A stretch of DNA of 64,000 nucleotides from Chitinophagaceae bacterium. GTDB taxonomy: Bacteria > Bacteroidota > Bacteroidia > Chitinophagales > Chitinophagaceae. Position numbers and translations under genes: made by a program. Below the pieces are notes generated by a model that worked only from the letters and a program-made list of their open reading frames with translations, was not told the DNA's origin and did no database searches. Below, piece by piece: positions 828-57,120 of this stretch (position 1 is the first letter of the stretch; every line of letters begins with the position of its first letter). Where the stretch lies: NCBI GenBank assembly GCA_014879565.1, contig JACSRW010000031.1, forward strand, positions 1 through 64,000, in the 5' to 3' direction.

Positions 828-899
828 CACATCTTCACATCTTCACATTTTCACATCTGCAAATCTTCACATCTGCTAATCTTCTAATCTGCTAATCAT
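828..899 (-). repeat. Octamer array at the 3' end of the first adhesin gene
   Basis: Nine octamers in exact 8-nt register from 828 to 899. On the plus strand they start as CACATCTT and drift to CACATCTG and then CTAATCTT. The stop codon of the minus-strand adhesin gene (896-898) lies inside the last unit, so the array begins at the gene's end and extends downstream. Read from that stop, TAG triplets recur every 8 nt and fall in all three frames. Confidence 0.9.
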
Positions 900-3800
900 C
901 GTATCAAATCAACATACCCCGTCATCCTCGCCCTCCCGTTCTTGGGATCAATCACATAATAATAAGTGCCAACAGGCGCGTCTTTGCCATTGATCTTTCC
1001 GTCCCAGGGTACGGCATAACCTACGGAGCGGAAAACAGGCTGACCATAACGGTTCACCACCTCCACCGTACAACCGGGATAGGTATCGAGATAGGGAATG
1101 ATCCAGCGATCGTGAATACCATCGCCATTCGGACTGAAAACATTCGGCACCTGGGGTTTCTTCAGCACTTTCACAAAGACCCGGTCACTGCTCACACATT
1201 CACCTTTGCCGGTTACAATAAACGTATAGGTAATATCTTCCACACCCAGCACCACCGGATTCAGTACGGTATTGCCCGCCGCAAAATACTGATCAGGCAT
1301 CCAGAGATAGGTCAGGTTGACCCCGGTGGCCGTTGGCTGCAGGGTAATCTGCCCTCCTTCCAGTACCAGCCGGTCAGGTCCTGCATCCACAACAGGATAA
1401 GCATTGATGACCACACTGTCGGTAAAAGTTGTACTGCGGCAGCCGAATTCATTGATGGCATATAAAGACACCTGGTAAGTACCAGGCTGGGTATAGGTAT
1501 AATTGAATGCGGCGCTATTGGCCACTGAGCCGTTATCCAGCTCCCAGAACCATTGCTGCACCTGTCCGCCCATGCCATTGGTGGCATCAGTAAACCGGAT
1601 GGGGTCTGCCAGGCATACCTCGTCATCATCCACGGTGAAGGCCGCGAGCGGCTGTTCATGAATGGTATTGAGCAGAATCGTGGTATCGTTGACGCATCCC
1701 GCTGCCGTGGTCACCTGCAGGTTTACACTGTAGGGCCCCGTCGTAACATAGGTATGAGAGGGATTCACCGCCGTGGAATTATTCACCACGCCGCTGCCGG
1801 GATCGCCGAAATCCCATAGATAACTGAACCCGCTTTCCGTATTATCCGGAATACTGGAAAGGTTGGTAAAAACGGCATTGGCATTGGGCAGACAGACCGA
1901 AGCAGGTATCCGGAAACCGGGCCGGGCCTGGGGATAAACATGAATGCGTGTCACCGCCTCGGGACTCACACAGCCATTGCTGGTAACCACTTTCAGCTTT
2001 ACCTCATAGTCGCCCCAGGCATAATAGGTATGCGTGACCGGGTTACCGGTAAGGGCTGTTACTAACGGGGAACCATCCCCGAAATCCCAGATCCAGTTGA
2101 CAATACTGCCTTCCGTGGATACAGAGTTCTGGCTGAAAGTCACGGTTCTTTTTTCACAAAGCGGACTGCTTGCACTGAAAACAGCCCGGGCCGGGGCATA
2201 AACATGGATGGTCTGTGTGATACTGTCGGTACAGCCTCCGGTGGACGAGGTAAACAGGTATTTAATTGTATGTGTACCGGGACCAGCAACTGCCGGATCA
2301 AATACACCGGTGGGTGAAACACCCGGGCCGGTAAAGAGGAAACTGCCGGGCACGCCCCCGGTTTCGGTGGCCTGGGTTAGCTGGTAAGGGGCGGCATCCA
2401 GGCAGATATCGGGCACCGGACTGAAAGCCACACTGGGTGCGGCATTTACAGTAATCGTCCGGATGATTTCATTCAGACATACACCCCCGGAATAGGCTTT
2501 GTACCGGATGTTGTAGGTACGGGTAAGCGGAGTCTGGAAATTCGGGTAAAGATGTTTGTACACTTTACCGGTATAGGGAAAATCGTCCTGGTCAAATACC
2601 GCGGGCTGACCGGCATTGTCCCAGTAAATTTCCACCTTGGTAATACTACCGGGGAATACGGTGGAGGCTTCACTGATAGCCACCGAATCGTTTGCACAGA
2701 GATCAGCCGGACGCAACACAGTAAAGTTGGCAACGGGATAACTGCCGTTTACAAAGAGGTTGGTATGTACGGTATCGCGGCAGCCGTTGATGGTAATCGC
2801 TTCAAGCGTGATCGGATAAGAGCCTTCCGCCGTATAACTATGCTGCGGATTTTGCAGTGTGGACGTATTATTGGCCCCGCTGCCCGGATCGCCGAAATTC
2901 CAGTTCCAGGCATTTACAAAGGAAGGGGCCTCTACCCTGCTGGTATCGGTGAACTGCGCATAGGTATCATTCAGACAGACATCGGGCAGGATAAAGCCTG
3001 CCTGTGGTTTGGGATGGATCGTGATATCACGGGTCAGTAAGGGATTGCTGCAACCTTTATCATTGGTTACCTGCAGCGTGATGGTATAGACGCCGGAGGT
3101 ATAAAAAATATGAGCCGGATTCTGAGCAGATGATGTATTCGCGGCGCCGCTGCCGGGATCACCGAAATTCCATGCCCAGGCAGTCAGGCTTCCCACATTC
3201 GCCACAGACGCATCGGTAAAGTTCAGCGGAATACCGGGACACATCGGATTTGATAATAAAAAATGCGGTGAAGGAGGTGGATGCACGATCACGGTCGCCT
3301 CACCGGTCTGTAAGTTATTACAGGTAGTGCTGCTGGCATCGGTTACGCTGACGAGGCTGTACACAAAGGTGCCGGCCGTGCCGGTGGGTACCGTCACGGT
3401 GGCTGTATTCCCGGTACTGGTAACGTTGAGGAGTCCTCCCCCGTTGATCCGGTAATAAAAAGTAAAGGGCGCGGTGCCCGTGGCCCCGGTAAAACTTATC
3501 TGCGGTGAGACCCCGTCTTTACACACTTCAGTGGTGCCGCTGATCGTGGCAGTGGGCAGGGGGTTAACGGTAATGGTTACGGTTCCGCTTTGGGTATTGC
3601 TGCAGGTGGTACTGCTGCCATCGGTAACACTCAGCAGGGAATAGGTATACGTACCGGGGATGGCGGTGGGTGCAGCTACCGTCACGCTGTTACCCGAAGC
3701 GGTAGTGACACTAAGCGGGGTACCTCCATTTATGGAATAACTGAATGTATAGGGCGCGGTACCGGTGGCCCCGGTGAACGTGACAAGCGGTGAAGGAGCA

Positions 3801-6085
3801 TCCTGACAAACGGCAATCGTGCCGCTGACAGCAGCCGTGGGCAGCGGGTTGACAATAATGGTAGCTGATCCGCTTTGCGGCTGGCTGCAGGTGGCGGGAC
3901 TGGCATCCTGCACACTGACCAGGTTATAGGTGTAGGTACCGGCAGTTGCGGTGGGAACAGAAACAGTGGCTGTACTCCCGGTACTTGTTACGGTTTGCGG
4001 CGCCCCCCCGTTTATAGTGTAAGTAAACGTAAACGGCGCGGTGCCGGTGCCGCCGGTGAAAGTGATTTGTGGTGAACTGCTGTTCTGACATACGGTTATA
4101 CTGCCGCTGATACTGCCGGTGGGTAAGGGAGAAATCGTTACCGGGTGACTGACCGTATCTGACAAACAACCCACATCAGTAATCAGCGCGAACCGGGCCG
4201 TATAGGTACCGGGCGCAGCATAGGCATGGGATGGATTGCTGTTAATCGCCGTGCCGGCATCTCCGAAATCCCAGTAACGGCTGATGACGGGACGACCGCC
4301 GGTGTTGTTGTTTTCGTTAAACTGTACCGGGTTGGGAAAACAAACCGGCGCATAGGTAAAATCGGCCACCGGCGGATCAAATACCTGGAGCACATAATCA
4401 ATCTGCTGTTCCCCGCTGCATCCATCGGGAGTGGGATTATTGGCTATGACCCGGATGGGATATGAGCCGGCCGTATTGATCGTATAGGGATTCGGGAGTT
4501 TGTACTGGTACAACTGTTTCCCGTTTACCACAAACGTATTATCATAAACGGGATTGGGGATATTCACATCCGGAAAGAGTCCGCTGAACTGCCAGCTGAT
4601 GGAAGTGGGCTGGTAGGGAAAGACCATAGAAAAATAGAAGGGGGATCCTTTACAGGCAGCGGGAAACTGAACGGTGGCATATTGATTCTGCACACTTACA
4701 TACTGGTAAAGGTCGCGCACATTGGTGCCCGCATTATAACCATAGGATTCATAATCCCCGTAACCATATGCAATGGCGATAAACCCGCTATCGGATACCG
4801 CCCGGTGGGTGGGATTGGTTTGCGTGGAAACAGTGATCTCTTCCTGCAGGTATGAATAACCCGTAGTGGGAATGGCTACCGGCGTGGCGGTATAAGGCGC
4901 CCCGTCAATACGCAGACTGGCCAGTCCCGCCGTGGGAATAATGATATTCAGAAAATGCCGGTTGATATTGGTATTGGGCGGTGTGAGATCATTCCGTGCC
5001 GATAAAACGGTAATGCTGCTCAGGGTTTGTTCGATGGGATTCAGCAGGATCATTTCCGGGTCGGCCTGTACCCCGTCGCAGCCCTGGGTGATCATATACT
5101 GCGCCACACAAACGGGTTTGTCAGCATTGATGATCCGGGGAGTATTATTTCCGCTGGTATTAAATTCATAGTAGCGGTTATTGATCAGACTGCCCAATGG
5201 CAGATTCACCCCGTTAACCGTAACCACCGTGGTTGGGTCTTTTACAAATACCCGGAAAATATCAAAAGCCCGGTCTTTAAAAGGGGCTGTGATGTAATGC
5301 TGTCCCCAGGAAACCAGCGGAAACATCTGCTGGTAAAGATTATCTCCGGAACTGGCACTGGTACATCCAAAGGCCGACCAGGTGGTACCGGCATATACGG
5401 CAATAGGTTTACAGGGGGCACCCGGCGCCGCCACTGATTTGATAAAACTGCCGCTCAGGTCGCCTGAATTGGCCGACTGAAACTGGTACACATCTCCTTT
5501 ATTGAGGCTGACGGTAAAGGGAACATTTGCCGGAAAGGTATTATTGGCATCCGGCTGAGAAGGTGTTATCTCCACCTGGGTATTGTCTTCTGTGGCAACA
5601 ATGGCAAATTCGGATTTGGAATTGTTTGAAGACGGACGTGACGGATAACTGGTTACATAATATTCTCTTCCCAGCACTTTGGTTGGTAACACCAGGGTGG
5701 AACCCGAGCGGGCGGCATGCAGGATATGCGAATACACCACAATCGGTGTATCGGCCACGATATGGATGCCTTTATTGACCCCGATCCCGGTAACCTGCCC
5801 GTTATGGGCCAGGGCATTGGACGGTGTGGAGGTATTGGTCAGCCGGAGTGTGGTGATCTGGTTGGCCGTAACGGTAAAGGGAAGATTGACCCCTCCGACG
5901 GATAGTGTACCGCTGGCATTGAATTCGGAGGTGATATACAGTGCCATCCGGGAGACGGTACCATTGATATGCCCGGTATAGATTACCCAGAAATCCTTTC
6001 CTTTATTGGAATAATCCTGTCCGTACAGCCCGGAATAGATCCCCAGCAGTAATACTAAAAAAGCAAGCCTTTGAACCTTTCTCAT
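896..6085 (-). CDS. Giant secreted PKD-repeat adhesin with T9SS type-B sorting domain
   Basis: A cell-surface or secreted protein of 1729 residues. The ATG at 6085 is chosen because it opens a clean signal peptide (MRKVQRLAFLVLLLGIYSGLYGQ); the open frame extends upstream only with a TTG start. Residues about 25-490 resemble the IgGFc-binding N-terminal domain (starting DYSNKGKDFW). A PKD domain with a YWDFGD core follows near 572-655, then three near-identical units of about 88 residues each bearing C-x5-SP-x5-TG and a TAP[FY]TF core. Several more PKD domains (WNFGDPGSG, WDFGDGSP, WDFGDPGSG) follow. The last 85 residues are the gliding-motility-associated C-terminal domain (VPNVFSPNGDGIHDRW), the type-B signal for export through the T9SS. 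Its ligand is unknown. It is the last gene of a probable three-gene unit with the PorP/SprF gene and a paralogue. Confidence 0.92.
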   Translation of the reverse strand: MRKVQRLAFLVLLLGIYSGLYGQDYSNKGKDFWVIYTGHINGTVSRMALYITSEFNASGTLSVGGVNLPFTVTANQITTLRLTNTSTPSNALAHNGQVTGIGVNKGIHIVADTPIVVYSHILHAARSGSTLVLPTKVLGREYYVTSYPSRPSSNNSKSEFAIVATEDNTQVEITPSQPDANNTFPANVPFTVSLNKGDVYQFQSANSGDLSGSFIKSVAAPGAPCKPIAVYAGTTWSAFGCTSASSGDNLYQQMFPLVSWGQHYITAPFKDRAFDIFRVFVKDPTTVVTVNGVNLPLGSLINNRYYEFNTSGNNTPRIINADKPVCVAQYMITQGCDGVQADPEMILLNPIEQTLSSITVLSARNDLTPPNTNINRHFLNIIIPTAGLASLRIDGAPYTATPVAIPTTGYSYLQEEITVSTQTNPTHRAVSDSGFIAIAYGYGDYESYGYNAGTNVRDLYQYVSVQNQYATVQFPAACKGSPFYFSMVFPYQPTSISWQFSGLFPDVNIPNPVYDNTFVVNGKQLYQYKLPNPYTINTAGSYPIRVIANNPTPDGCSGEQQIDYVLQVFDPPVADFTYAPVCFPNPVQFNENNNTGGRPVISRYWDFGDAGTAINSNPSHAYAAPGTYTARFALITDVGCLSDTVSHPVTISPLPTGSISGSITVCQNSSSPQITFTGGTGTAPFTFTYTINGGAPQTVTSTGSTATVSVPTATAGTYTYNLVSVQDASPATCSQPQSGSATIIVNPLPTAAVSGTIAVCQDAPSPLVTFTGATGTAPYTFSYSINGGTPLSVTTASGNSVTVAAPTAIPGTYTYSLLSVTDGSSTTCSNTQSGTVTITVNPLPTATISGTTEVCKDGVSPQISFTGATGTAPFTFYYRINGGGLLNVTSTGNTATVTVPTGTAGTFVYSLVSVTDASSTTCNNLQTGEATVIVHPPPSPHFLLSNPMCPGIPLNFTDASVANVGSLTAWAWNFGDPGSGAANTSSAQNPAHIFYTSGVYTITLQVTNDKGCSNPLLTRDITIHPKPQAGFILPDVCLNDTYAQFTDTSRVEAPSFVNAWNWNFGDPGSGANNTSTLQNPQHSYTAEGSYPITLEAITINGCRDTVHTNLFVNGSYPVANFTVLRPADLCANDSVAISEASTVFPGSITKVEIYWDNAGQPAVFDQDDFPYTGKVYKHLYPNFQTPLTRTYNIRYKAYSGGVCLNEIIRTITVNAAPSVAFSPVPDICLDAAPYQLTQATETGGVPGSFLFTGPGVSPTGVFDPAVAGPGTHTIKYLFTSSTGGCTDSITQTIHVYAPARAVFSASSPLCEKRTVTFSQNSVSTEGSIVNWIWDFGDGSPLVTALTGNPVTHTYYAWGDYEVKLKVVTSNGCVSPEAVTRIHVYPQARPGFRIPASVCLPNANAVFTNLSSIPDNTESGFSYLWDFGDPGSGVVNNSTAVNPSHTYVTTGPYSVNLQVTTAAGCVNDTTILLNTIHEQPLAAFTVDDDEVCLADPIRFTDATNGMGGQVQQWFWELDNGSVANSAAFNYTYTQPGTYQVSLYAINEFGCRSTTFTDSVVINAYPVVDAGPDRLVLEGGQITLQPTATGVNLTYLWMPDQYFAAGNTVLNPVVLGVEDITYTFIVTGKGECVSSDRVFVKVLKKPQVPNVFSPNGDGIHDRWIIPYLDTYPGCTVEVVNRYGQPVFRSVGYAVPWDGKINGKDAPVGTYYYVIDPKNGRARMTGYVDLIR

Positions 6086-7256: not shown

Positions 7257-7259
7257 GGC

Positions 7260-16188: not shown

Positions 16189-16223
16189 TAGTTAGAAGTT
16201 AGGAGATTGAAGTTAGTCGTTGC
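16189..16223 (-). repeat. Heptamer-type repeat downstream of pyrB
   Basis: Five units of about 7 nt, including AAGTTAG twice, between the pyrB stop (16258) and the coaD start (16182). Unlike most arrays in this window, it starts about 35 nt after the stop codon. Confidence 0.55.
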
Positions 16224-20694: not shown

Positions 20695-21525
20695 ATGAAA
20701 AAGATCCTTTTCTCCGGCCTCGCCCTGCTGGCACTGGCCTGCAATAATTCTGCTGAGACCAAAAAAGAAACCGACATGAACCAGCCAAAACTCAAAACGG
20801 AAGCCATTACTTATTCTCCCGAAGGAAGTAAAGACAGCCTGGTGCTGGACGGGTATATTGCCTGGGACGAAAACAAGGAAGGCAAAAGACCGGCCATATT
20901 GGTGGTGCATGAATGGTGGGGACAGAATGAATATATCAGAAGAAGAGTACGTGAACTGGCAGAGCTGGGCTATATCGCCATGGCTGTTGATTTTTATGGA
21001 AACGGGAAAAGGGCCGATAATCCCACCGATGCGGGCAACCTGGCCACCCCTTTTTATAAAGATCCCCTGATGGCGCAACAGCGTTTTGATGCCGCACTCG
21101 CTGCATTGAAAAAATACCCGCAGACCGATCCGGCCAATATCGCGGCTATTGGTTACTGCTTTGGGGGCACCCAGGTAATAAATATGGCCAATCTCGGGGA
21201 AGACTTAAAAGGGGTAGTGAGTTTTCACGGCGGACTGGAAGTCGTAAAACCGGAAAAAGGCAAACTCAAAGCACAGGTGCTGGTTTGCCATGGCGCGGCA
21301 GATCCCTTTGTTCCGCAGGAACAGGTGGATAAATTCAGGCAGCAAATGGATTCCGCCGGAGCTGTTTATACTTTTAAAGCCTATGAAGGCGCCACTCACG
21401 CCTTCAGTAATCCCGATGCCACAGCTACCGGCCAGAAATTCAATATCCCGATTGCATATAACGCGCAGGCCGATACCGCTTCCTGGAAGGATATGAAAGT
21501 GTTTTTTGGAACAATCTTTAAATAG
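20695..21525 (+). CDS. Dienelactone hydrolase family lipoprotein
   Basis: 276 residues with an alpha/beta-hydrolase fold. The signal peptide ends in LLALAC, so Cys16 is the probable lipidation site and the enzyme is membrane-anchored outside the cytoplasm. Recognisable parts are VVHEWWGQNEYIRRR, the nucleophile elbow GYCFGG (Cys as in dienelactone hydrolase), and the later Asp and His (HGAADPFVP; ATHAFSNP). Classical family members open the lactone ring of dienelactones, but lipoprotein versions are general esterase-like enzymes of unknown substrate. A hairpin terminator is seen only 430 nt downstream, beyond the repeat array. Confidence 0.85.
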   Translation: MKKILFSGLALLALACNNSAETKKETDMNQPKLKTEAITYSPEGSKDSLVLDGYIAWDENKEGKRPAILVVHEWWGQNEYIRRRVRELAELGYIAMAVDFYGNGKRADNPTDAGNLATPFYKDPLMAQQRFDAALAALKKYPQTDPANIAAIGYCFGGTQVINMANLGEDLKGVVSFHGGLEVVKPEKGKLKAQVLVCHGAADPFVPQEQVDKFRQQMDSAGAVYTFKAYEGATHAFSNPDATATGQKFNIPIAYNAQADTASWKDMKVFFGTIFK

Positions 21526-21529: not shown

Positions 21530-21932
21530 GAAAAGAACCAAGAACCAAATAACAAGAACCAAGGCCTCCTTTTCATAAGAGTCGCAATCTCGGCACTTGG
21601 TTCTTGGATCCTGGCTTTTGGAATTTTGAGAAAAAGAACCAAGAACCAAATAACAAGAACCAATACCTCCTTTCAAAAAGATCGTAAGCCTGACAATTGG
21701 TTCTTCGGATCTTGGCTCTTGGAATTTTGAGAAAAAGAACCAAGAACCAAATAACAAGAACCAAGGCCACCTTTTGATAAGAATCGCAAGCCCGACAATT
21801 GGTTCTTCGGATCTTGGCTCTTGGAATTTGGGAAAAAGAACCAAGAACCAAATTACAAGAACCAAGGCCTCCTTTTGATAAGAGTCGTATGCTTGACAAT
21901 TGGATCTTGGATCTTGGCTCTTGGTTCTTGCT
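21530..21932 (+). repeat. Four tandem copies of a 101-bp repeat
   Basis: Copies begin at about 21530, 21631, 21732 and 21833, a spacing of 101 nt. Each starts with AAAAAGAACCAAGAACC (itself two heptamers AAGAACC) and ends with TTGGTTCTTCGGATCTTGG or a close variant. The two ends are partly complementary, so adjacent copies can form hairpins (AAGAACCAA with TTGGTTCTT). The array begins 5 nt after the dienelactone hydrolase stop. Frames through the repeat are not genes. Confidence 0.92.
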
Positions 21933-21961
21933 TATTTATCGTAGTTATACGTATTCGTTTC

Positions 21962-24809: not shown

Positions 24810-25706
24810 ATGAAAACACTCACCGGTTATATACGCAGTTTTCTGAGTGACAGTGATAAAAGCACTTTATTCTTCACGAGTATTTTTTGCGGGGCCATTA
24901 TATTTATCAATTATCAGTTCGGACTGGAAACCGGTATTCAAAAAAAATTATCTGTCCCCTTTAAACTTATCGCCTGGTATGCAGTCTTTCTCGCCGCGCT
25001 GGGTTTGCCCCTGCTGATCGGTCTCCGGAATACAACACAACGCCCATTTTCCCCTTTATTTTTCGGGACCGTTTTTCTTGCTCCTTTTTTGTTTGCCTGC
25101 AAATATGTACTCCGTGTCCCCCTGTCTGTTACCGGAGACCCGGTGCTGAACCAGGCCTGGAATAAAATACTGTACTGGCCGCTTTTACTGGCAGCCCTGC
25201 TGCTGGTATTATATCTTTTGAACCGTTTCTTTTACCATGATCGCAGTTTTTTTGGTCTCCGGAACCGTCTGAAAAACGCAGACTGGTACTGGCTGCTGCT
25301 GGTACTGATGATTCCGCTTGTCTTGCTGGCCGCCACACAGCCCGATTTCCAGGCGGTATATCCCAAGTTAAAAATGCTAACGCCCGGTGAATCACTTTCC
25401 GGCATACCGGTCTGGCAGGCCTTTTTTTTTGAACTGAGTTATGGCAGTGATTTTCTCGGGATAGAATTATTCTTTCGCGGCTTCCTGGTCTTAACCCTTT
25501 CCCGCTGGTTAGGCAGGGAGGCCATTCTTCCCATTGCAGTATTTTATTGCAGTATCCATTTCGGTAAACCGCTGGGAGAATGTATCAGCTCCTATTTCGG
25601 GGGTATTATACTGGGGGTGATCGTTTATCATACCCGCAGTATTCGCGGGGGATTACTGGTTCACCTGGGAATTGCCTGGCTGATGGAAATTGCCGGCATG
25701 TTATAA
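24810..25706 (+). CDS. CPBP (CAAX/Abi-like) family membrane protein with altered catalytic motifs
   Basis: 298 residues from the ATG at 24810, with about seven hydrophobic segments. It matches CPBP intramembrane proteases in the last third (IELFFRGFL, SIHFGKPLGE, HLGIAWLME). The usual motif 1 is EExxxR; here the first Glu is Ile (IELFFR). Motif 2 FxxxH reads YCSIH, and the HxxxN-type motif reads HLGIA. Three deviations suggest that the protease may be inactive or work differently. Length and topology are otherwise normal. The upstream ATGs of the frame overlap the divergent lipoprotein gene and have no support. Confidence 0.75.
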   Translation: MKTLTGYIRSFLSDSDKSTLFFTSIFCGAIIFINYQFGLETGIQKKLSVPFKLIAWYAVFLAALGLPLLIGLRNTTQRPFSPLFFGTVFLAPFLFACKYVLRVPLSVTGDPVLNQAWNKILYWPLLLAALLLVLYLLNRFFYHDRSFFGLRNRLKNADWYWLLLVLMIPLVLLAATQPDFQAVYPKLKMLTPGESLSGIPVWQAFFFELSYGSDFLGIELFFRGFLVLTLSRWLGREAILPIAVFYCSIHFGKPLGECISSYFGGIILGVIVYHTRSIRGGLLVHLGIAWLMEIAGML

Positions 25707-25707
25707 A

Positions 25708-25760
25708 GGCGTTTGACGTTTGTTGTTTGTACCTCAAACCCCAAACAACAAACTTCAAAC
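25708..25760 (+). repeat. Heptamer array with inverted arms after the CPBP gene
   Basis: Starts 2 nt after the stop at 25706. Heptamers such as GACGTTT and GTTGTTT are followed, after a turn, by AAACAAC and AAACTTC. GTTTGTTGTTTG (25718-25729) pairs perfectly with CAAACAACAAAC (25742-25753), and outer arms at 25711-25715 and 25756-25760 extend the stem. It sits between the convergent CPBP and RNase P genes. Confidence 0.8.
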
Positions 25761-25761
25761 T

Positions 25762-25768
25762 AAAAAAA
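25762..25768 (-). terminator. U-tract ending RNase P RNA
   Basis: Seven T residues on the minus strand immediately after the closing strand of helix P1 (GGCTTGTAGC). Helix plus U-run is a natural intrinsic terminator. Confidence 0.75.
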
Positions 25769-26251
25769 GCTACAAGCCATAAGCCGGATTCTGTACACTT
25801 CCTGACGGAAGGGACTGCCATTTATCTGTCCCGGCACTTACGCACCGGGATCCATCTGCCTACCCTGTACCGCTCCTGCCTTGCGGCCGTCTCGGACGAG
25901 TCACCCTCAGGCGGTACTATATGTGGCATTTCAGCATGCAAGGTTTACCCGCGAATACTGTTACCAGTATAAGCCGTGGGCTCTTACCCCGCGTTTTCAA
26001 CCTTGCCCTCCGTAGCTTCAGCGAAGGAGGGCCGCTCTTCTCCACGCTAAAGATACTTTTTACCTCAGCGAAGCAGGGTTGCCCCCATTTCCCTGAAGCT
26101 ACATCAGGCGGTTATTTTCTGTGGCACTTTCTCTCTGCCGTTCCTTGGGGAGACAGCAGGCCGGCTCTTCACCGGTGCATTGCTCTGTGCTGTCCGGACT
26201 TTCCTCCCGGTCACCCTTTCGGGTTTACCGCGCGGCAGTCTGGCTTGTAGC
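25769..26251 (-). ncRNA. rnpB: RNase P RNA (catalytic RNA, class A type)
   Basis: The RNA that removes 5' leaders from tRNA precursors. The ends pair exactly as helix P1: GCTACAAGCC (5' end, 26251-26242) with GGCTTGTAGC (25778-25769). Conserved blocks are GAGGAAAGTCCGGAC near the 5' end, CCCACGGC-type P10/P11 sequence with GGTAAGAGCC, and ACAGAATCCGGCTTATGG near the 3' end. The length of about 483 nt is roughly 100 nt above the common bacterial size. The extra sequence lies in the specificity domain and includes a hairpin at 26005-26032 (GCCCTCC/GGAGGGC). Open frames crossing this interval are not genes. Confidence 0.95.
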
Positions 26252-27355: not shown

Positions 27356-27404
27356 TCCATTGCCCATTGCCTACTGCCTATTCCCTATCGCCTATTGCCC
27401 ATTA
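27356..27404 (-). repeat. Heptamer array anchored at the permease stop codon
   Basis: Seven units in 7-nt register. On the minus strand the permease's stop codon TAG (27394-27392) opens the unit TAGGCGA, and the next is TAGGGAA. The TAG triplets 7 nt apart fall in three different frames. The array also reaches two units back into the last codons of the gene. Confidence 0.9.
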
Positions 27405-29101
27405 TCTTTCCCCGCCAGCTTACTGTTCCGGTAGCCATACAGGAAATAGATGAGCAGTCCCAGGGCCATCCAGCCAAAGAACCAGGTCCAGCTGATAGCG
27501 GGAATCTCAATCATCAGGTAAAGACAGGATAAAACCCCCATGATCGGTATAAAGGAATAATTGCGGATAAAAGTCAGGACTGTGAGAATCACCGTGATGA
27601 TGACAAATACGAGGAACAATACTTCCTGGTAATCTTCATGCCCTATATGTGTGAAAGATTCCACCAGACGATTACGGAAGAAATAGATAAATAAAGCCGT
27701 CAGCAGGGGCACAATATATTTTCCGTTGATATAAGGCAGATGGAACCTGCCTGCTTCCTTTGGCACCCTTGGCAGCAGTAAAACACCGCCTGATACCAGC
27801 ACAAATGCGAAAAGTGTACCGATACTTGTCAGGTCGGTTACCAGCCCGCTCTGGATAAAAAGGGCCCCTGCCCCAACAATGACCCCTGTCAGGATGGTGG
27901 CAAAGGAAGGGGTATGAAAACGGGGATGAATTTTCTGGAACCGTTTCGGGAGTAAGCCATCCCGGCTCATACTCATCCATATCCTTGGCTGACCGATCTG
28001 AAAAACCAGCAGGACCGAAGTGGTGGCCACTACCGCGCTGATGGAAACAATATGTTCGATCCAGGGGGCTCTTTTCTCAAATACAAAAGCCAGGGGATCG
28101 TTCACATCCTTGAAGGCGGAGGAGGATTCAATACCTGTTAGTACAAGGGCAATCAGGATATACAGGACCGTACAAATAACCAGGGAGTAAATCATCCCTT
28201 TAGGCATATCCCGCTGCGGGTTTTTACATTCTTCAGCTGTTGTGGAAATCGCGTCAAAACCGATATAGGCATAAAAGACCGCCGACACCCCTTTCAGCAC
28301 CCCTTCAAAACCATTGGGCATAAACGGTGACCAGTTATTGGTATCCACAAAGAAAGCTCCGGCCACGATGACAAAAATGATAACAGCCACTTTGAAAATC
28401 ACCATAAAATTGGCCGACTTTTTACTTTCCCTTATCCCGATAAAGGCCAGCCAGGTGATCAGTCCCACGATGATAAAAGCCGGCAGGTTAAAAAAGATAT
28501 GCGTGCCGCCAATTACCGGGGCATTATTGTACGCGTCAACGGCAAACTGGTAGGATTTAAGCTGTTCCGGATCGGTCACCGTACCGGCCGCCAGGGCTTT
28601 TGTGGCTTCCGTAAAAGCATTCCCGGCTGTGACGGGGTCCACCAGCATCCAGTCGGGCAGGTGGATATTAAAAATATGTACAAGCAGATTATTGAAATAA
28701 CCGCTCCAGGAAATCGCCACCACAATATTTCCGATTGCGTATTCCAGGATCAGGGCCCAACCGATGATCCAGGCGATCAGTTCTCCAAAAGTGACATACG
28801 AATACGTATAGGCACTGCCCGCCACCGGTATACGGCTGGCGAATTCAGCATAACAAAGAGCGGAGAAACCACAGGTTACGGCGGTGATGATAAATAAGAG
28901 GGAAATACCCGGTCCGCCGTTATAGGCAGCACTGCCGATAGTGGAGAAAATTCCCGCGCCGATCACCGCCGCAATGCCCAGAAAGGTGAGGTCCCGCACA
29001 CCGAGTACTTTATCAAGATGGGCGCCGTGATCGGATAACCCGCTTTCGTACTCTTTTTTGATTACATCAATTGATTTCTTGCGGAACAGAGAATTTGCCA
29101 T
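27392..29101 (-). CDS. APC-superfamily amino acid permease
   Basis: 569 residues with about 12-14 membrane segments, in the inner membrane. The N-terminal cytoplasmic stretch (KKSIDVIKKEYESG) and first helix (GIAAVIGAGIFSTIGSAAYNGGPG) are typical of the CAT (cationic amino acid transporter)-like branch; GAGIF is the unwound substrate site of helix 1. A second signature is AVFYAYIGFDAISTTAEECKNPQRDMPKG. The specific amino acid is not predictable. The final codons are embedded in a heptamer array. Neighbours are housekeeping genes and give no metabolic hint. Confidence 0.9.
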   Translation of the reverse strand: MANSLFRKKSIDVIKKEYESGLSDHGAHLDKVLGVRDLTFLGIAAVIGAGIFSTIGSAAYNGGPGISLLFIITAVTCGFSALCYAEFASRIPVAGSAYTYSYVTFGELIAWIIGWALILEYAIGNIVVAISWSGYFNNLLVHIFNIHLPDWMLVDPVTAGNAFTEATKALAAGTVTDPEQLKSYQFAVDAYNNAPVIGGTHIFFNLPAFIIVGLITWLAFIGIRESKKSANFMVIFKVAVIIFVIVAGAFFVDTNNWSPFMPNGFEGVLKGVSAVFYAYIGFDAISTTAEECKNPQRDMPKGMIYSLVICTVLYILIALVLTGIESSSAFKDVNDPLAFVFEKRAPWIEHIVSISAVVATTSVLLVFQIGQPRIWMSMSRDGLLPKRFQKIHPRFHTPSFATILTGVIVGAGALFIQSGLVTDLTSIGTLFAFVLVSGGVLLLPRVPKEAGRFHLPYINGKYIVPLLTALFIYFFRNRLVESFTHIGHEDYQEVLFLVFVIITVILTVLTFIRNYSFIPIMGVLSCLYLMIEIPAISWTWFFGWMALGLLIYFLYGYRNSKLAGKDNGQ

Positions 29102-37425: not shown

Positions 37426-37465
37426 GGGTTGACGGGTTAACAGGCTGACCGGTTAATCAGTCAGG
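37426..37465 (-). repeat. Octamer repeat downstream of the DUF4249 gene
   Basis: Five 8-nt units on the plus strand, beginning GGGTTGAC then GGGTTAAC and drifting. It lies about 20 nt beyond the DUF4249 stop (37487), upstream of the trxB promoter. Confidence 0.6.
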
Positions 37466-42020: not shown

Positions 42021-42043
42021 AATTAGGGGAAGATAAAGACAGG

Positions 42044-42092
42044 CCGGTTACAATCTGCCGGCTACAATCTGCTAACTGCTATCCGCCGGCTT
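42044..42092 (-). repeat. Heptamer array at the end of the NTF2-like gene
   Basis: Seven units in exact 7-nt register, including CAATCTG twice and CCGGTTA/CCGGCTA, ending 4 nt short of the NTF2-like gene's stop at 42096. Read on the minus strand from that stop, TAG triplets occur in all three frames within about 37 nt. Confidence 0.85.
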
Positions 42093-42095: not shown

Positions 42096-42548
42096 TCACT
42101 CACATCCTGTCCTCCTCCTGGTATCCACCAGGTACTGAATTTTCCAGCCTTCCTTAAAACGAACCAGCTGAAATGAGTTCACACCGCAATGACTGAACTG
42201 GCCATTATAATAAAACTTGTAGGGGGTCCAGACCAGGGCCAGGGGACCATCCACCTTAATGGTCTCAAATACGATCTGTTCATCTGCCGCGCCGGCGGGT
42301 AATTTTTTGATACTTTCCGCGAAAGCTTCTGCGCGTTCGTTCCGCACCTGGAAATTGCCTTCTTTATTCCGGATAATCGTTTGCATCACCACACTGTCGG
42401 CAAAACAGGATTTGAGTTGTGCCGCATCCGCGTTTTTCATAGCGGAAAAAAGGGTATTGATGACCCCTTTTACAGAATCCTCCGGGCTTTGCGCAACCGT
42501 AACACCGCCCATAACCAGCATTGTTAAGAGTATCCAAAATTGTTTCAT
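42096..42548 (-). CDS. Secreted SnoaL/NTF2-like protein
   Basis: 150 residues. Signal peptide MKQFWILLTMLVMGGVTVAQ, then one NTF2-like cone-shaped domain (VKGVINTLFSAMKNADAAQLKSCFADSVVM, later VNSFQLVRFKEGWKIQYLVDTRR). Secreted NTF2-like proteins are common in Bacteroidota, some being enzymes and others ligand carriers. No catalytic residues can be assigned. It stands alone. Confidence 0.8.
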   Translation of the reverse strand: MKQFWILLTMLVMGGVTVAQSPEDSVKGVINTLFSAMKNADAAQLKSCFADSVVMQTIIRNKEGNFQVRNERAEAFAESIKKLPAGAADEQIVFETIKVDGPLALVWTPYKFYYNGQFSHCGVNSFQLVRFKEGWKIQYLVDTRRRTGCE

Positions 42549-43018: not shown

Positions 43019-43387
43019 ATGAACAGAAATTTTATCCTGACAGCAGCCGCCCTCCTGAGCCTGGCAGCCCTTATAAGCAGCTGCGGCCATAGCCGTGTTT
43101 GGGCCAATAACAAAGAGAAAAAAACCTATGCCGAACCGGCCAGATCCCCCAGACCTGCATACGGGCCGGTGTATACCCCTGCCCCGCTGATTGTAAGCCC
43201 CAGCCCGGGTTTTACCATGGCCCGTCACCCCAACGGTCAATATTACCACCGGGGAGCACAGGGACTGATGTACTGGAAAGGCTTTGACAACCGGTTTTAT
43301 CTGGACAGGAACCAGGTAGATAAGTCGCGGTACAGCAAGTTTGAATACCGGGAATGGAAGCGGTTCAGCCGGCATAGCGGGAAATGA
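43019..43387 (+). CDS. Small lipoprotein of unknown function, Pro/Tyr/Arg-rich
   Basis: 122 residues. The lipoprotein signal ends in LISSC (Cys22). The mature part is Pro-rich (ARSPRPAYGPVYTPAP) and then aromatic-basic (YYHRGAQGLMYWKGFDNRFYLDR, KFEYREWKRF). It follows the previous lipoprotein gene by 45 nt, so the two may be co-transcribed. Function unknown; could bind nucleic acid or polysaccharide by its basic-aromatic surface, which is speculation. Confidence 0.6.
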   Translation: MNRNFILTAAALLSLAALISSCGHSRVWANNKEKKTYAEPARSPRPAYGPVYTPAPLIVSPSPGFTMARHPNGQYYHRGAQGLMYWKGFDNRFYLDRNQVDKSRYSKFEYREWKRFSRHSGK

Positions 43388-43527
43388 GAAGTTATGAATA
43401 ATGAGTAATGAGTGATGAGTAATTTCCGAAACTTCTAAAAGAAACAGGCCCTCTGATTAACGGAGGGTTCTGTTTATGACAACAAGTTCAGCCAGTTACT
43501 TATCACTCATTACTCATCACTCATTTA
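43385..43527. repeat. Facing heptamer arrays, each starting at a stop codon
   Basis: Two heptamer arrays of the same family face each other. On the plus strand, the stop TGA of the 43019-43387 gene opens the unit TGAGAAG, continuing with TAATGAG repeats to about 43422. On the minus strand, the arginine decarboxylase stop TGA (43523-43521) opens TGAGTGA, then TGAGTAA, running to 43496. The arrays are inverted relative to each other and can pair, with a terminator hairpin between. Both supply stops in all three frames. Confidence 0.9.
43443..43474. terminator. Bidirectional terminator between facing arrays
   Basis: AACAG (43443-43447) pairs with CTGTT (43470-43474), and CCCTC with GAGGG inside. 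It forms the tip of a larger structure closed by the flanking inverted arrays. Confidence 0.6.
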
Positions 43528-44921
43528 TATCCCAAGATCTTCAACATACTCTGCGCCGTCTGCTGTTTGGCATACACCCAGTCAGTCAGTTTGCCGTTTT
43601 TATCATACCCGACTATCACGTGTTTGGGAGAGGGTATCAGGCAATGTTTAATCCCGCCATAACCACTGATCTGATCCTGGTAGGCGCCGGTATGGAAAAA
43701 GCCGACATAGAGAGGTTCTTTGTCGCCGTTTACCTTGGGCAGGAATACTTCGTTGATATGCTCTTCTGAGTCGTAATAATCGTGGCTGTCGCAGGTAATC
43801 CCCCCGAGTACCACCCGCTGGTGGTCATGATCCCATTTGTTGACCGGCAGCATCAGGAATTTCTCCCCGATCCCCCAGGTATCCGGCAGGGTGGTGATAA
43901 AGGAGGAATCAATCATATACCAGGTTTCCCGGTCATTCTGTACTTTTTCCGCCACAACGCTGTAAATATGGGCCATGCTCTCCCCTACGGTATAGGATCC
44001 GAATTCGGTAAAGATATTCGGCATGGGGACTTTTGCTTTTTTGCAGGCTACCTTGATATTACGGACGATCTCATTGATCATAAACTGGTAATCGTATTCG
44101 AAACCCAGTGAGTGTTTGATCGGGAATCCGCCGCCGATATTGATGGAATCCAGTTCCGGACAGATTTTTTTGAGCTGGCAATACAGGTTAATCACTTTAT
44201 TGAGCTCACTCCAGTAATAGATATCGTCCTTGATGCCCTTGTTCAGAAAAATATGAAGCATTTTCAGCTGAAACTTGCTTTCATAACCCTCAATACGGTC
44301 TACATAGAATTCCAGGATATCCTTGGCCCGCATGCCCAGCCGGGAGGTATAAAAGGGGAAACTGGGCTCTTCCTCGGCCGCCACCCGGATGCCCAGTTTA
44401 AAGGGCAGTTTCACGGAATGTGCATAATCCTTCAGTTCGTCTTTATTGTCGAGAATGGGGATCACATTGGAAAAGCCGGAATTGATCAGCCCGGCAATCC
44501 GGCGGGTATAGGCTTTTTGTTTAAACCCGTTGCAGATAATATGAATATCCTTGGTGATCTTTTTACGGGCATACAGCTTTTTGATGATATCAATATCGTA
44601 GGCGTAGGAAGTTTCCAGGTGTACTTCATTTTTCAGCGCTTCCTCCACCACAAAACTGAAATGGGAGCTTTTGGTGCAATAACAATAGAAGTATTTTCCC
44701 TCGTACTTATGCCGTTTAAAGGCATTGGCAAACATCAGCTTCGCCTTTTTTATCTGCATCCCGATTTTGGGAAGATAGCTGAGCTTCATCGGGGTGCCGT
44801 GTTTGGCGATCAGGGCCCGGAGGTCCAGTCCGTTGAAATAGAGATTACCATCCTTCACATCAATCCCTTCCTGGGGGAAATTAAAGGTCTGCTTGACGAG
44901 ATCGTAGTAGGAATTTGTCAT
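43521..44921 (-). CDS. speA: Biosynthetic arginine decarboxylase (PLP, Bacteroidota short form)
   Basis: 466 residues. Decarboxylates arginine to agmatine for polyamine synthesis, using PLP held by Lys84 (FYCYCTKSSHF). Further fold-III decarboxylase motifs: SINIGGGFPIK (the glycine turn contacting the PLP phosphate), FTEFGSYTVGESM, and GGITCDSHDYYD near the second active-site Cys/Asp. It is about 160-190 residues shorter than E. coli SpeA, as in other Bacteroidota. The ATG at 44921 is chosen since the promoter box at 44971-44964 lies inside the longer frame. It could instead act on another basic amino acid, but family membership is clear. Confidence 0.92.
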   Translation of the reverse strand: MTNSYYDLVKQTFNFPQEGIDVKDGNLYFNGLDLRALIAKHGTPMKLSYLPKIGMQIKKAKLMFANAFKRHKYEGKYFYCYCTKSSHFSFVVEEALKNEVHLETSYAYDIDIIKKLYARKKITKDIHIICNGFKQKAYTRRIAGLINSGFSNVIPILDNKDELKDYAHSVKLPFKLGIRVAAEEEPSFPFYTSRLGMRAKDILEFYVDRIEGYESKFQLKMLHIFLNKGIKDDIYYWSELNKVINLYCQLKKICPELDSINIGGGFPIKHSLGFEYDYQFMINEIVRNIKVACKKAKVPMPNIFTEFGSYTVGESMAHIYSVVAEKVQNDRETWYMIDSSFITTLPDTWGIGEKFLMLPVNKWDHDHQRVVLGGITCDSHDYYDSEEHINEVFLPKVNGDKEPLYVGFFHTGAYQDQISGYGGIKHCLIPSPKHVIVGYDKNGKLTDWVYAKQQTAQSMLKILGYK

Positions 44922-47319: not shown

Positions 47320-47335
47320 TCTCCAATTTTTGCCC

Positions 47336-47946: not shown

Positions 47947-47969
47947 AATACTAATTTTCCACTACCCAA

Positions 47970-52989: not shown

Positions 52990-52996
52990 ATCTGCA

Positions 52997-53128: not shown

Positions 53129-53171
53129 ATCCCTTAACGAATTCCTCACAGTCAGTTAAGGACGGATTAGT

Positions 53172-53179
53172 TAGTTTTG
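53172..53179 (+). promoter_or_regulatory. TAnnTTTG promoter box of the DUF4403 gene
   Basis: TAGTTTTG with 11 nt to the ATG at 53191, giving a leader of about 7 nt. It supports that ATG over the frame start at 53104. Confidence 0.6.
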
Positions 53180-53190
53180 AACTTCTATCT

Positions 53191-54621: not shown

Positions 54622-55133
54622 CCCATTTCTTCCTCTTCTGAGGGAGTCACCCGGAAGGAGAAATTACGCTGGGCGAGGTAGCTGAAAACAACGACAATGA
54701 CGATGGTAATGACCTGGGCCAGGATTTCATCCAGCCTGAATTTTTCAATTAGAATTTTAAGTAACAGGTAGTTCAGCGCCAGGTTAAACATACAGATCAT
54801 AAAATAGCGGAACAGCTGAATCCGGCCCTTCATCTTTGAATCACTGAACACCACATATTTCGACATAAAAAAGCCGATAGGAAAGGTGACACAAAAGGAT
54901 AAAAAGAGGGCCGCTGTATGTCCCTTGAGGGCATAAAAATCAAAATGAAAATCGCTTTCCCGGAACAGGTATTTAAAACTCACGGTGTAGATCAGGAATC
55001 CCAGGACCACATTGCCTCCCCCCGAGGCCGCATACCGGAATGTTTGCAGATTCATCAGTTTCCGGAAGGGGGGATAAAAAAAATCAATTACCGGAAGGAT
55101 AAAGTCACGGACGTTATGTAGATGCCTGCGCAT
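54618..55133 (-). CDS. GtrA family membrane protein
   Basis: 171 residues from ATG at 55133, four membrane helices. GtrA-like proteins are small flippase-type partners of glycosyltransferases: RYAASGGGNVVLGFLIYTVSF (helix 1), LFLSFCVTFPIGFFMSKYVVFSDS, FRYFMICMFNLALNYLLLKILIE, and ITIVIVVVFSYLAQRNFSF. The longer frame (to 55202) has the promoter box at 55147-55140 within it, so the ATG at 55133, 6 nt beyond the box, is preferred. No glycosyltransferase is adjacent. Confidence 0.88.
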   Translation of the reverse strand: MRRHLHNVRDFILPVIDFFYPPFRKLMNLQTFRYAASGGGNVVLGFLIYTVSFKYLFRESDFHFDFYALKGHTAALFLSFCVTFPIGFFMSKYVVFSDSKMKGRIQLFRYFMICMFNLALNYLLLKILIEKFRLDEILAQVITIVIVVVFSYLAQRNFSFRVTPSEEEEMG

Positions 55134-55139
55134 AAGGGG

Positions 55140-55147
55140 CAAATATA
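55140..55147 (-). promoter_or_regulatory. TAnnTTTG promoter box of the GtrA gene
   Basis: TATATTTG, then CCCCTT, then ATG. The leader would be about 1-2 nt. It decides the start of this gene. Confidence 0.6.
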
Positions 55148-55212
55148 AAAAGGAAATTTGAGTCGGGAGCTGTCTGATGGAATCCAGGAGACTGTAAATC
55201 ATGCTTATTCCC

Positions 55213-55220
55213 TACATTTG
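55213..55220 (+). promoter_or_regulatory. TAnnTTTG promoter box of argS
   Basis: TACATTTG lies inside the longest open frame of argS, 10 nt before ATG at 55231. The predicted leader is about 6 nt. It shows that the upstream ATG at 55201 is not used. Confidence 0.65.
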
Positions 55221-55230
55221 CCCGTTAAAG

Positions 55231-57015
55231 ATGTCTGAAATGAATATTGTAAGCAAGATAAAACCGCTGATTACCGGGATACTGAATGAACTGTATGGCC
55301 AGGAATTCGCGGAAGACAGCCTGACGATCAACAGCACCAAACCCGAATTTGAGGGCGATTATACCCTGGTGCTTTTTTCCTTTGTAAAGCAGCTGAAAAA
55401 ATCGCCTGAAAGTCTGGGTGAAGAAATCGGCCAGGCCCTGACGGGTAAATATCCGGAATTGTTTACTGCTTATAATGTCATTAAGGGTTTTTTGAACCTG
55501 ACCATCTCCGACCACTACTGGCTGGATGTATTGCAACGGGAATACCATAACCCCGCATTTGGCAAGAAAGCGGCAACCGGAAAGACCGTAATGGTGGAAT
55601 ACTCCTCTCCCAATACCAATAAGCCCCTGCACCTCGGACACCTGCGTAATATATTCCTGGGCTGGAGTATTGCCGAAATCCTGAAGGAAAACGGACATGA
55701 GGTCATCAAAAGCTGTATCGTCAATGACCGGGGCATTCACATTTGTAAAAGCATGATTGCCTGGCAGCTTTTCGCCAACGGAGCCACCCCTGCATCCACC
55801 GGTGTAAAGGGAGATCATTTTGTAGGAGAATACTATGTTAAGTTCAATGATGAATACAAACGCCAGGTGGAAGAACTGGTGGCCGGGGGTATGAAAAAGG
55901 AGGAAGCGGAAAAAGAAGCCCCGGTGATGAAAGCAACCCAGCAAATGCTGCTGGACTGGGAAGCGGGCAAACCGGAGGTGATGGAGCTCTGGAAAAAAAT
56001 GAATACCTGGGTATATGAAGGTTTTGATGTAACCTATCACCGGATCGGGGCTGACTTCCAGAAAATGTATTACGAAAGCAATACCTATCTGCTCGGTAAA
56101 CAATTTGTGGAAGACGGTTTGCAGTCAGGTGTTTTTTACAGAAAGGAAGATGGCAGTGTGTGGATAGACCTGACGGCAGAGGGGCTGGATGAGAAACTGG
56201 TCCTTCGAAAGGACGGCACTTCCGTATATATCACCCAGGATATGGGACTGGCAGATCAGAAATACGCGGAATTCAGGAATGACCAGAGCATCTATGTGAT
56301 TGCCGATGAGCAGAACTATCACATGAAAGTGCTGAAACTGATCCTGCAGAAACTGGGTAAGCCCTATGCTGACGGCATTTATCACCTCAGTTACGGCATG
56401 GTGGAACTTCCTTCCGGACGGATGAAAAGCCGGGAAGGCACCGTGGTGGATGCCGATGATATTGTGGAGGAAATGGTGAAAGTGGCCAAAAACAAAACTG
56501 AGGAACTGGGCAAAGTGAAAGATTTCACAGAACCGGAACTGATAGAACTCTTTGATACCATTGCGCTGGGCGCCCTGAAATTTTTCCTTTTACGGGTTGA
56601 CCCCAAAAAGAAAATGATCTTCAATCCCGAAGAGTCCATCGATTTCCATGGATTTACCGGACCCTTTGTGCAATACACACATGCCCGGATCCGGTCGGTA
56701 TTGAGAAAAGCCGGAGAAACAGCCCTGGTTCCGGTCACCGCTCCCCTGCTTCCGCTGGAAAAGGAATTGCTGGTACTGATGGAACAATACCCGGTGGTCA
56801 CCGAACAGGCGGTCGCAGAACACAATCCTTCCCTGCTGGCCATTTATGCTTTTAACCTGGCCAAAACCTTTAATACATTTTACACGGAACATTCGGTACT
56901 GAATGCAGAGACCCCGGAGAAAAAAACTGTAAGGCTTCAACTGGCAGAAATGACGGCCAATATCATCCGCTCGGCAATGGGTTTGCTGGGAATAAGGGTG
57001 CCGGAAAGGATGTAA
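55231..57015 (+). CDS. argS: Arginyl-tRNA synthetase
   Basis: 594 residues from ATG at 55231 (MSEMNIVSKIK). Class I synthetase: charges tRNA-Arg with arginine. The HIGH-type motif is PNTNKPLHLGHLRNIFLG and the KMSKS-like loop is GRMKSREGTV. The N-terminal 80 or so residues form the Add1 tRNA-binding domain, and the C-terminal helical bundle ends in ANIIRSAMGLLGIRVPERM. A second ATG (55240) three codons on is also possible. The octamer array begins directly after the stop. Confidence 0.96.
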   Translation: MSEMNIVSKIKPLITGILNELYGQEFAEDSLTINSTKPEFEGDYTLVLFSFVKQLKKSPESLGEEIGQALTGKYPELFTAYNVIKGFLNLTISDHYWLDVLQREYHNPAFGKKAATGKTVMVEYSSPNTNKPLHLGHLRNIFLGWSIAEILKENGHEVIKSCIVNDRGIHICKSMIAWQLFANGATPASTGVKGDHFVGEYYVKFNDEYKRQVEELVAGGMKKEEAEKEAPVMKATQQMLLDWEAGKPEVMELWKKMNTWVYEGFDVTYHRIGADFQKMYYESNTYLLGKQFVEDGLQSGVFYRKEDGSVWIDLTAEGLDEKLVLRKDGTSVYITQDMGLADQKYAEFRNDQSIYVIADEQNYHMKVLKLILQKLGKPYADGIYHLSYGMVELPSGRMKSREGTVVDADDIVEEMVKVAKNKTEELGKVKDFTEPELIELFDTIALGALKFFLLRVDPKKKMIFNPEESIDFHGFTGPFVQYTHARIRSVLRKAGETALVPVTAPLLPLEKELLVLMEQYPVVTEQAVAEHNPSLLAIYAFNLAKTFNTFYTEHSVLNAETPEKKTVRLQLAEMTANIIRSAMGLLGIRVPERM

Positions 57016-57066
57016 GGGTAAGTTGAAAGGTTGAGAGGTTGAGAAGTTGAGGGGTTGAGAGGTTGA
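57016..57066 (+). repeat. Octamer array directly after argS stop
   Basis: Six units in 8-nt register from 57016, the base following the argS stop: GGGTAAGT, then TGAAAGGT and TGAGAGGT-type units. Stops (TGA) recur every 8 nt, entering all three frames. The unit TTGAGAGG also occurs in the composite array at 163-597. Confidence 0.92.
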
Positions 57067-57085
57067 TATATAACAAACCTTTCTT

Positions 57086-57120
57086 CCGGCTACTAACTGC
57101 TGACTTCCGACTATCCCTAC
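57086..57120 (-). repeat. Heptamer array anchored at the TPR gene stop
   Basis: Five 7-nt units on the plus strand starting CCGGCTA and CTAACTG; the stop TAG of the convergent TPR gene (57119-57117) lies in the last unit. Its consensus differs from that of the argS array only 20 nt away, so each gene carries its own array. Confidence 0.85.

Follow-up and report, generated by a model that had tools for sequence, protein, structure and literature searches.

Short tandem repeat arrays of period 7 and 8 follow a polar layout at gene edges in a Chitinophagaceae genome

Why short, degenerate tandem arrays with a period of 7 or 8 nucleotides (nt) should gather at the ends of genes is the question raised by a 64-kb stretch of DNA, hereafter the window (positions 1 to 64,000 of contig JACSRW010000031.1, GenBank assembly GCA_014879565.1), from a Chitinophagaceae bacterium of the phylum Bacteroidota. 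Short tandemly repeated repetitive (STRR) heptamers are known from cyanobacteria. A sequence-only reading of the window had proposed that its arrays are anchored at stop codons, that each locus has its own consensus and that each array grew from the end of its own gene. We found the pattern to be real, strong and of a known kind, with polarity as the governing rule of array layout: the purine-rich strand, read 5' to 3', leads away from the gene edge and into the spacer, an orientation called inward below. What is new here is that the rule is independent of any one repeat sequence and of quadruplexes, that it includes period 8 and that the stop codon is often held by the array.

Period, position and polarity of the arrays

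The sample, taken from a 3.43-Mb genome (G000), comprised the window and 985 kb further, 1.05 Mb in total, with a first scan of 864 kb. Genes (820 in the 1.05 Mb) were predicted with a hexamer model, and spacers, taken with 20-nt margins, were scanned for degenerate periods of 4 to 20, with Tandem Repeats Finder (TRF) run on the window in parallel; shuffled controls preserved dinucleotide frequencies. Results at start edges depend on our own gene caller, which trims starts, a weakness from which stop edges are free. The 108 kb of spacer in the first 864 kb contained 56 arrays of period 7 and 24 of period 8, against 0.5 and 0.6 in shuffles, whereas the neighbouring periods 6 and 9 gave three arrays and one, so that the predicted preference was borne out in both comparisons; in 710 kb of coding DNA there was a single period-7 array and none of period 8. 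Enlarging the sample to 1.05 Mb gave 67 and 29 arrays of periods 7 and 8, three and one of periods 6 and 9, and four each of periods 10 and 14. The arrays share with the intergenic heptamer-type short tandem repeats their units of about 7 nt, their dispersal and their almost exclusively non-coding location.

Other genomes were compared, one per species (38 genomes, including G000). Period-7 and period-8 arrays numbered 35 and 16 in G001 and 22 and 10 in G012, with no more than 0.3 in shuffles; each of these genomes also has three period-9 arrays, beside 51 and 32 of period 7/8, and period 9 is there rare rather than absent. Seven arrays were found in 200 kb of G032, while G009 (200 kb, 28 kb of it spacer) had one of period 7 and none of period 8. 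The latter, a congener of similar genome size that is nearly array-free in the sampled 200 kb, offers a natural comparison for the onset or loss of arrays.

Layout was counted on 80 of the 96 period-7/8 arrays, namely those whose flanking genes were both usable and whose purine-rich strand was clear, which excluded ten without usable flanks or in spacers longer than 1500 nt and six of mixed composition. The nearest edge was a stop for 49 arrays and a start for 31, at odds with the idea that arrays occur at gene ends only. Anchoring at stops was confirmed: of the 46 stop-side arrays that had room to move, 32 begin no more than 5 nt from the stop, against a mean of 4.9 and a maximum of 14 in 2000 trials of random placement, and 9 of the 31 start-side arrays lie within 5 nt of a start (random: mean 3.3, maximum 10). 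This anchoring is not exclusive; among the codirectional spacers in the first 864 kb, stops and starts were each the nearest edge of 22 arrays, and within 10 nt of 19 versus 10. Twelve inward start-side arrays are separated from the start by 8-40 nt, and six of them end 1-12 nt short of a TAnnTTTG box, which we take to be the -7 element of Bacteroidota and which lies within 40 nt at 66 of 500 start edges. Among 13 genes for transfer RNA (tRNA) or transfer-messenger RNA in the sampled parts of G000 and G012, a single one has an array within 150 nt; it lies 6 nt upstream of the gene and is oriented as expected.

The purine-rich strand is inward in 76 of the 80 arrays, on whichever strand the gene lies (46/49 on the stop side, 30/31 on the start side, 34/37 among singletons), and it has G over C in 75 of the 80. 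The AAGAACC arrays, in which C exceeds G, are inward in four of five cases. In G012 (175 kb) all 13 arrays at most 20 nt from an edge point inward, as do 21 of 22 at all distances, nine further arrays of mixed composition being unscorable; four of the seven arrays of G032 could be scored and all four are inward, and the single array of G009 has the opposite orientation. Across phyla, the matches listed for an exact 24-mer of the GAGTAAT family come from records labelled Cyanobacteria, Bacteroidota, Chloroflexota, Campylobacterota, Acidobacteria and others, several of the loci being metagenome-assembled contigs whose phylum labels may be wrong in places. The 115 loci among these matches gave 121 arrays (one duplicate removed), 31 of them without a usable flank; of the 90 scored, 42/46 are inward at up to 20 nt from an edge, 12/18 at 21-60 nt and 15/26 beyond 60 nt. 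In this family polarity accompanies abutment across phyla. With one layout rule in unrelated families and one family across phyla, explanations tied to one repeat sequence are probably too narrow.

The unpolarised arrays far from an edge in the cross-phylum set would suit a directional process in which the pyrimidine strand is extended at its 3' end, so that 7-8-nt units accrue on the 5' side of the purine strand and use up spacer until constrained sequence halts the growth. Such extension alone would yield abutment and polarity regardless of gene direction, and the 5' purine-strand end of the arrays does abut constrained things of several kinds: stops, starts, -7 boxes, a tRNA and, by eye, the T-run of a terminator at C1:36770. 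However, gene side and core side did not differ in regularity (18 arrays one way, 19 the other way and the rest of the 59 tied), far arrays of G000 are polarised, and no enzyme candidate was found for directional extension, which we consider quite unlikely. We are more doubtful still that a cross-phylum, family-indifferent extension of the pyrimidine strand in 7-8-nt steps consumes spacer toward gene edges until selection halts it; if it did, gene ends and promoters would mark the limit of tolerated genome change.

Array density differs with spacer type, from 2.36 per kb between convergent genes (23 arrays in 9.7 kb) through 0.83 between codirectional genes (51 in 61.1 kb) to 0.25 between divergent genes (6 in 23.8 kb), and under-representation between divergent genes is a trait of the heptamer class. 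These densities would agree with a functional transcript element, whereby sense-purine 3' ends, and pyrimidine-rich RNA with C over G entering genes, would act as a Rho-type barrier or insulator; the excess of G over C on the purine strand points the same way, Rho is present in G000 (627.6 bits), and parts of Rehm et al. (2015, PMC4692102) report more frequent transcript starts or stops at quadruplex-capable arrays. The AAGAACC arrays, with their C excess, are nevertheless mostly inward, and G009 ends its compared genes without arrays. To our knowledge cyanobacteria lack Rho, although the control for the Rho search did match Synechococcus, with its cut-off status unstated. Since cyanobacterial loci obey the polarity (30/33 within 20 nt, among the matches listed), a Rho barrier, although appealing as a source of polarity, is rated low, and we find a functional transcript element very unlikely.

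Stop codons within arrays and differences between species

Forty-one inward stop-side arrays lie within 15 nt of a stop; 19 overlap it by at least one base, and 14 take in the stop from the first base on. Stop use in these 41 genes (TAA 6, TGA 22, TAG 13) was compared with that in 324 other genes followed by at least 60 nt of spacer (TAA 158, TGA 125, TAG 41), and TAA is depleted in the former (6/41 vs 158/324, p = 2e-5). The depletion is seen where the array overlaps the stop (2/19, p = 0.001) and where it begins 0-3 nt after it (2/12, p = 0.04), and is not significant beyond 3 nt (2/10, p = 0.11). Array sequence often provides the stop codon of the gene.

The proposal that the units place stops in all three frames stood for 37 of the 59 inward arrays no farther than 20 nt from an edge, on their inward strand, and proved to be a property of certain families only, eight of the 59 being stop-free in every frame. 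The opposite strand has all-frame stops in 0/59 and is stop-free in 41/59. Frame-independent termination is therefore unsupported as a general role, given these stop-free arrays, the arrays at starts, -7 boxes, RNase P RNA and one tRNA, and the many relatives that end the same genes without an array. The phase of arrays relative to the stop, which had been expected to be non-random, was uneven in the GAGTAAT family (8, 5 and 1 of 14 arrays in the three phases) but spread among the GTTGAG (five) and GGAG (ten) arrays; since phase peaks are expected where the units supply the stop, no separate phase rule is claimed.

Families are common to many loci. A GTTGAGAG 21-mer has 160 overlapping matches in the genome and a GAGTAAT 21-mer has 111, both at up to two mismatches, so that the claim of an own consensus at each locus falls. 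Over the 38 genomes, the GAGTAAT 21-mer is matched in G000, G004 and G012 only, and a GTTGAGAG 22-mer has 143 matches in G000 and at most two in any other. Orthologous gene ends (gltA, guaB, sucD, accA and argS) were compared by eye. The gltA gene is followed by GGAGTCG arrays directly after its TAG in G000 and G012, by CTAGAAG in G004 and by TATAGTC in G010, with no array in G009, G005, G032, G030 and G031 and none clear in G001; guaB by GAGTAAT arrays in G000, GTTGACAG in G004, an array-like stretch in G001 and an ordinary terminator in G012; and argS, which lies in the window, by GTTGAGAG in G000 and AGTCGGG in G004, while G007 has about 13 nt between the two stops. At sucD, G000, G004 and G012 all have GAGTAAT pairs, and the latter two have the spacer in common apart from a difference of two 7-nt blocks. 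Among the relatives shown, 6/9 are array-free at gltA, 4/6 at guaB and 6/6 at accA; the C-terminal protein ends of the compared orthologues are alike despite these differences in arrays. Growth from the own end of each gene is contradicted, because families span many loci and sister species differ at the same stop. Rapid change at conserved gene ends, with units serving as stops, makes the origin of 7-8-nt repeats testable by strain comparison. A comparison of synteny between G012 and G004 yielded no aligned stretch of gene order.

A family spread over many spacers could also consist of small mobile elements inserted in short spacers, with arrays as inverted ends (array, terminator core, inverted array) and single arrays as solo ends; the inversion of the ends would automatically make arrays inward and abutting both genes. 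Small dispersed repeats (SDR) of Nostoc, reportedly described by Elhai et al. in 2008, are said to be very small spacer repeats associated with heptamer arrays. GAGTAAT looks element-like: its matches are nearly balanced on the two strands (56/55 in G000, 67/67 in G004, 60/52 in G012), and of the five spacer hairpins CCCTCC..GGAGGG in 1.05 Mb four adjoin GAGTAAT arrays and the fifth (window 41991) adjoins the weak array at 42043; further GAGTAAT pairs have different cores. Over 256 bp that take in the core, two places on contig C47 of G012 are 75% alike, and a place in G004 matches one of them at 82% over 248 bp. Arrays of G012 often have common inner flanks, e.g. GAGTAGCT; nested copies also occur there, GAGTAAT end modules following within one spacer at steps of about 70-85 bp and being mirrored at the other edge (L219, L220 and L223). 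Homology of cores between loci, as in SDR or miniature inverted-repeat transposable elements, was found in the GAGTAAT family in G012 only.

Singletons, however, obey the polarity as already noted, and some spacers have different families at their two edges. The order of unit variants is not shared between G000 loci (z 0.3 for GAGTAAT, -1.2 for GTTGAG), and in G012 its excess is weak (mean z 1.1, with 1/40 permutations attaining as high a proportion of pairs that share 24 nt). Y1 transposases were counted in array-bearing genomes (two in G000, five in G001, three in G004, six in G012) but also in array-poor G009 (one) and G032 (three), and an enzyme for a mobile element was not found, RVT_1 genes numbering 0 in G001, G004 and G012. 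On balance we regard mobile elements as a credible but unlikely general explanation.

Several candidate causes were set aside. The reverse transcriptase PF00078 is absent in three array-bearing congeners and present in array-poor G009; Y1 transposases give no clean split between array-bearing and array-poor genomes (2-6 copies against 1 and 3); and block copying with conserved unit order was negative in G000 and weak in G012.

Proposed selection at gene edges and known heptamer repeats

The explanation that we prefer, tentatively and at somewhat less than an even chance, is that the arrays are fast-turnover spacer repeats of the known heptamer class that stand at gene edges by selection; with equal reserve, we take them to be spacer DNA, for which no host function was found in this analysis. 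Units would be gained and lost by slippage or recombination that holds the period at 7 or 8, and a period set by the replication or recombination machinery is an idea of Mrazek (2007), as cited in parts of PMC4692102 and PMC4679880. The extent of an array would be limited by purifying selection on the stop codon, the start codon, the -7 box or an RNA gene. The weakest step concerns orientation: one orientation may survive near an edge in that the purine strand leaving a gene usually brings stops and the other strand hardly any. At start edges the matching reason would be the absence of decoy start codons.

Several observations weigh against this explanation by selection. The polarity is looser in G001 (399 kb), where 18/22 arrays within 20 nt and 24/34 over all distances are inward and 15 mixed arrays are unscorable. 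G000 has 15 arrays at distances above 30 nt from an edge, and 12 of these point inward as well, which is unexpected under a pure edge filter. Of the 41 stop-side arrays considered above, 22 begin after an intact stop, and the eight near-edge arrays that lack stops in every frame belong here too. The one tRNA 5' edge obeys the polarity beyond the reach of a translation filter, and a test for a growth gradient along the arrays was negative. Some function or stability would be suggested by the transcripts that begin or end more often at quadruplex-capable arrays and by a gene order more conserved in repeat-bearing regions than in controls, both reported in parts of PMC4692102. Finally, the TAACTGA repeats sampled in Microcystis do not fit a single fixed polarity, with six sets forward and eight reverse to the start and eight between stops (parts of MacGregor 2015, PMC4679880). 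Selection at gene edges accounts for most but not all cases.

That no stop-anchored class was known, as the sequence-only reading had it, is superseded by the passages available from Rehm et al. (2015, PMC4692102) on Xanthomonas and Nostoc and from MacGregor (2015, PMC4679880). The former describe GGGAATC / GGGGA(C/T)T heptamers in stop-overlapping, strand-polar arrays which, like the arrays analyzed here, have period 7, are degenerate, are dispersed in spacers at or over stops and are rare between divergent genes. There the G-rich strand coincides with the coding strand downstream of genes and with the non-coding strand upstream of them, a layout found here as well when judged by the purine-rich strand (coding strand at stops, non-coding strand before starts). 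Convergent inverted pairs number 70 and 75 in two xanthomonads, and a regulatory role for these heptamers could not be identified by Rehm et al. in the parts available. The repeats of Rehm et al. have one G-tract consensus, form quadruplexes in vitro and prefer four units, whereas the arrays described here comprise many families, mostly without G3 tracts, occur with period 8 too, belong to Bacteroidota and supply stops.

The common layout would invite the quadruplexes studied for GGGAATC repeats as the cause here also, and 18 of the 59 inward near-edge arrays do have a G2 motif. A G3-quadruplex motif, with four G3 tracts, is present in 2/59, and GAGTAAT, GTTGTAA and AAGAACC units obey the layout without a G-tract; on these counts and G-tract-free families, quadruplexes fail as a general cause here and are extremely improbable.

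According to the passages available from MacGregor (2015, PMC4679880), TAACTGA direct repeats occur in Beggiatoaceae, Cyanobacteria and five Bacteroidetes and, like the arrays described here, are intergenic heptamers patchily distributed over distant phyla; indels between two Cyanothece strains are mostly of 7 nt. In the Bacteroidete Flexibacter litoralis 12 of the 14 sets precede a start in forward orientation, and one set of seven units closely follows a stop in reverse, which gives a mirror-image layout like that seen here. They differ in being one exact heptamer, interpreted as translational regulation before starts, with mixed orientations in Microcystis, and their inward strand (TCAGTTA) is not the purine-richer one, unlike that of our arrays. 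For long simple sequence repeats, heptanucleotides are the commonest long unit class in most genomes (Mrazek et al. 2007, as cited in parts of PMC4692102 and PMC4679880); unlike the present arrays, they come in these citing passages with no mention of stop anchoring or polarity. In the open-licence literature, outside which most subscription journals lie, no report of a multi-family layout rule in Bacteroidota was found.

Arrays and neighbouring features in the window

The arrays of the window are collected in Table 1. Six of the ten entries proposed from the letters passed the scan, and those at 16189, 37426, 42044 and 57086 were weak or uncalled. An array was called by neither TRF nor scan at 37426-37465 and 57086-57120, of which the latter is plausible by eye; in congener G004 a clear AGTCGGG-type array stands at the end of the same TPR gene. 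For the entries at 16189 and 37426 the distance to a stop is 22-35 nt, and a start is close by. Missing from the earlier list were the GTTGAGAG-type arrays at 213-236, 368-403 and 474-501.

Table 1 Repeat arrays and associated features in the 64-kb window.
Feature	Position	Strand	Context and detection
Three GTTGAGAG-type period-8 arrays in 98/167-bp tandem repeat	209..501	+	TRF + scan
Period-8 array, GATTAGCA/GATGTGAA type	821..900	-	Overlaps stop of minus-strand gene 896-6085; TRF + scan
Weak AGTTAGA-type array	16189..16223	+	About 35 nt from nearest stop (16258), near a start; TRF score 33 only
AAGAACC-type period-7 arrays, both orientations	21531..21936	+	Within 3.9 copies of 101-bp unit; TRF + scan
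Inverted period-7 array, folds as one hairpin	25710..25761	+	3 nt past stop at 25706; scan + folding
GGCAATA-type period-7 array	27357..27403	-	Contains stop TAG of amino-acid permease gene 27392-29101; TRF + scan
Weak array: two copies of a 14-mer (42043-42072), by eye heptamer-like as far as 42092	42043..42092	-	TRF
GAGTAAT-type period-7 array	43394..43423	+	6 nt past stop of 43019-43387; TRF + scan
Core between paired GAGTAAT arrays	43424..43495	.	Hairpin CCCTCT..GGAGGG
Inverted mate of GAGTAAT array	43496..43525	-	Overlaps stop TGA of convergent gene 43521-44921; scan
GTTGAGAG-type period-8 array	57022..57066	+	6 nt past stop of argS (55231-57015); TRF + scan
AGTCGGA-like heptamers, sub-threshold (by eye)	57086..57116	-	Reach stop of TPR gene 57117-58160

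The inverted array at 25710-25761 also lies 3 nt from the 3' end of a bacterial class A RNase P RNA (25765-26251, minus strand; Rfam RF00010, 215.8 bits) and fills the gap between it and the neighbouring stop. The end of the weak array at 42043-42092 and the stop of the minus-strand gene 42096-42521 are 3 nt apart, and the first AAGAACC array stands 5 nt past a stop at 21525; further AAGAACC arrays occur at C20:1.9-2.1 kb and C3:18.0 kb.

Four stretches of the window were folded. The GAGTAAT pair (43388-43520, z -9.6) forms one long hairpin around a terminator-like one. A hairpin, with no T-run on the plus strand, is also formed by the inverted array (25707-25765, z -5.4), while the single array at 27356-27410 (z 0.5) and the mixed spacer at 57016-57116 (z -1.6) gave no comparable values. 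Hairpins as a general property were accordingly rejected, holding for the first two of the four stretches only, and a stable hairpin followed by a T-run, as in an intrinsic terminator, was not formed by the array in any of the four.

The 1729-aa product of the minus-strand gene 896-6085 combines PKD domains with an IgGFc-binding domain and a CHU_C type IX secretion signal, in keeping with a Bacteroidota host. At 209-593 the tandem 98/167-bp repeat joins the GTTGAGAG arrays with a palindrome-like dispersed repeat (GAGCGTGTCGAAGGGT), and related letters adjoin arrays at C2:170.3 kb and C32:43.0 kb. A 54-bp tandem repeat of 2.1 copies, alternatively called by TRF as 27-bp units, occupies positions 1-116.

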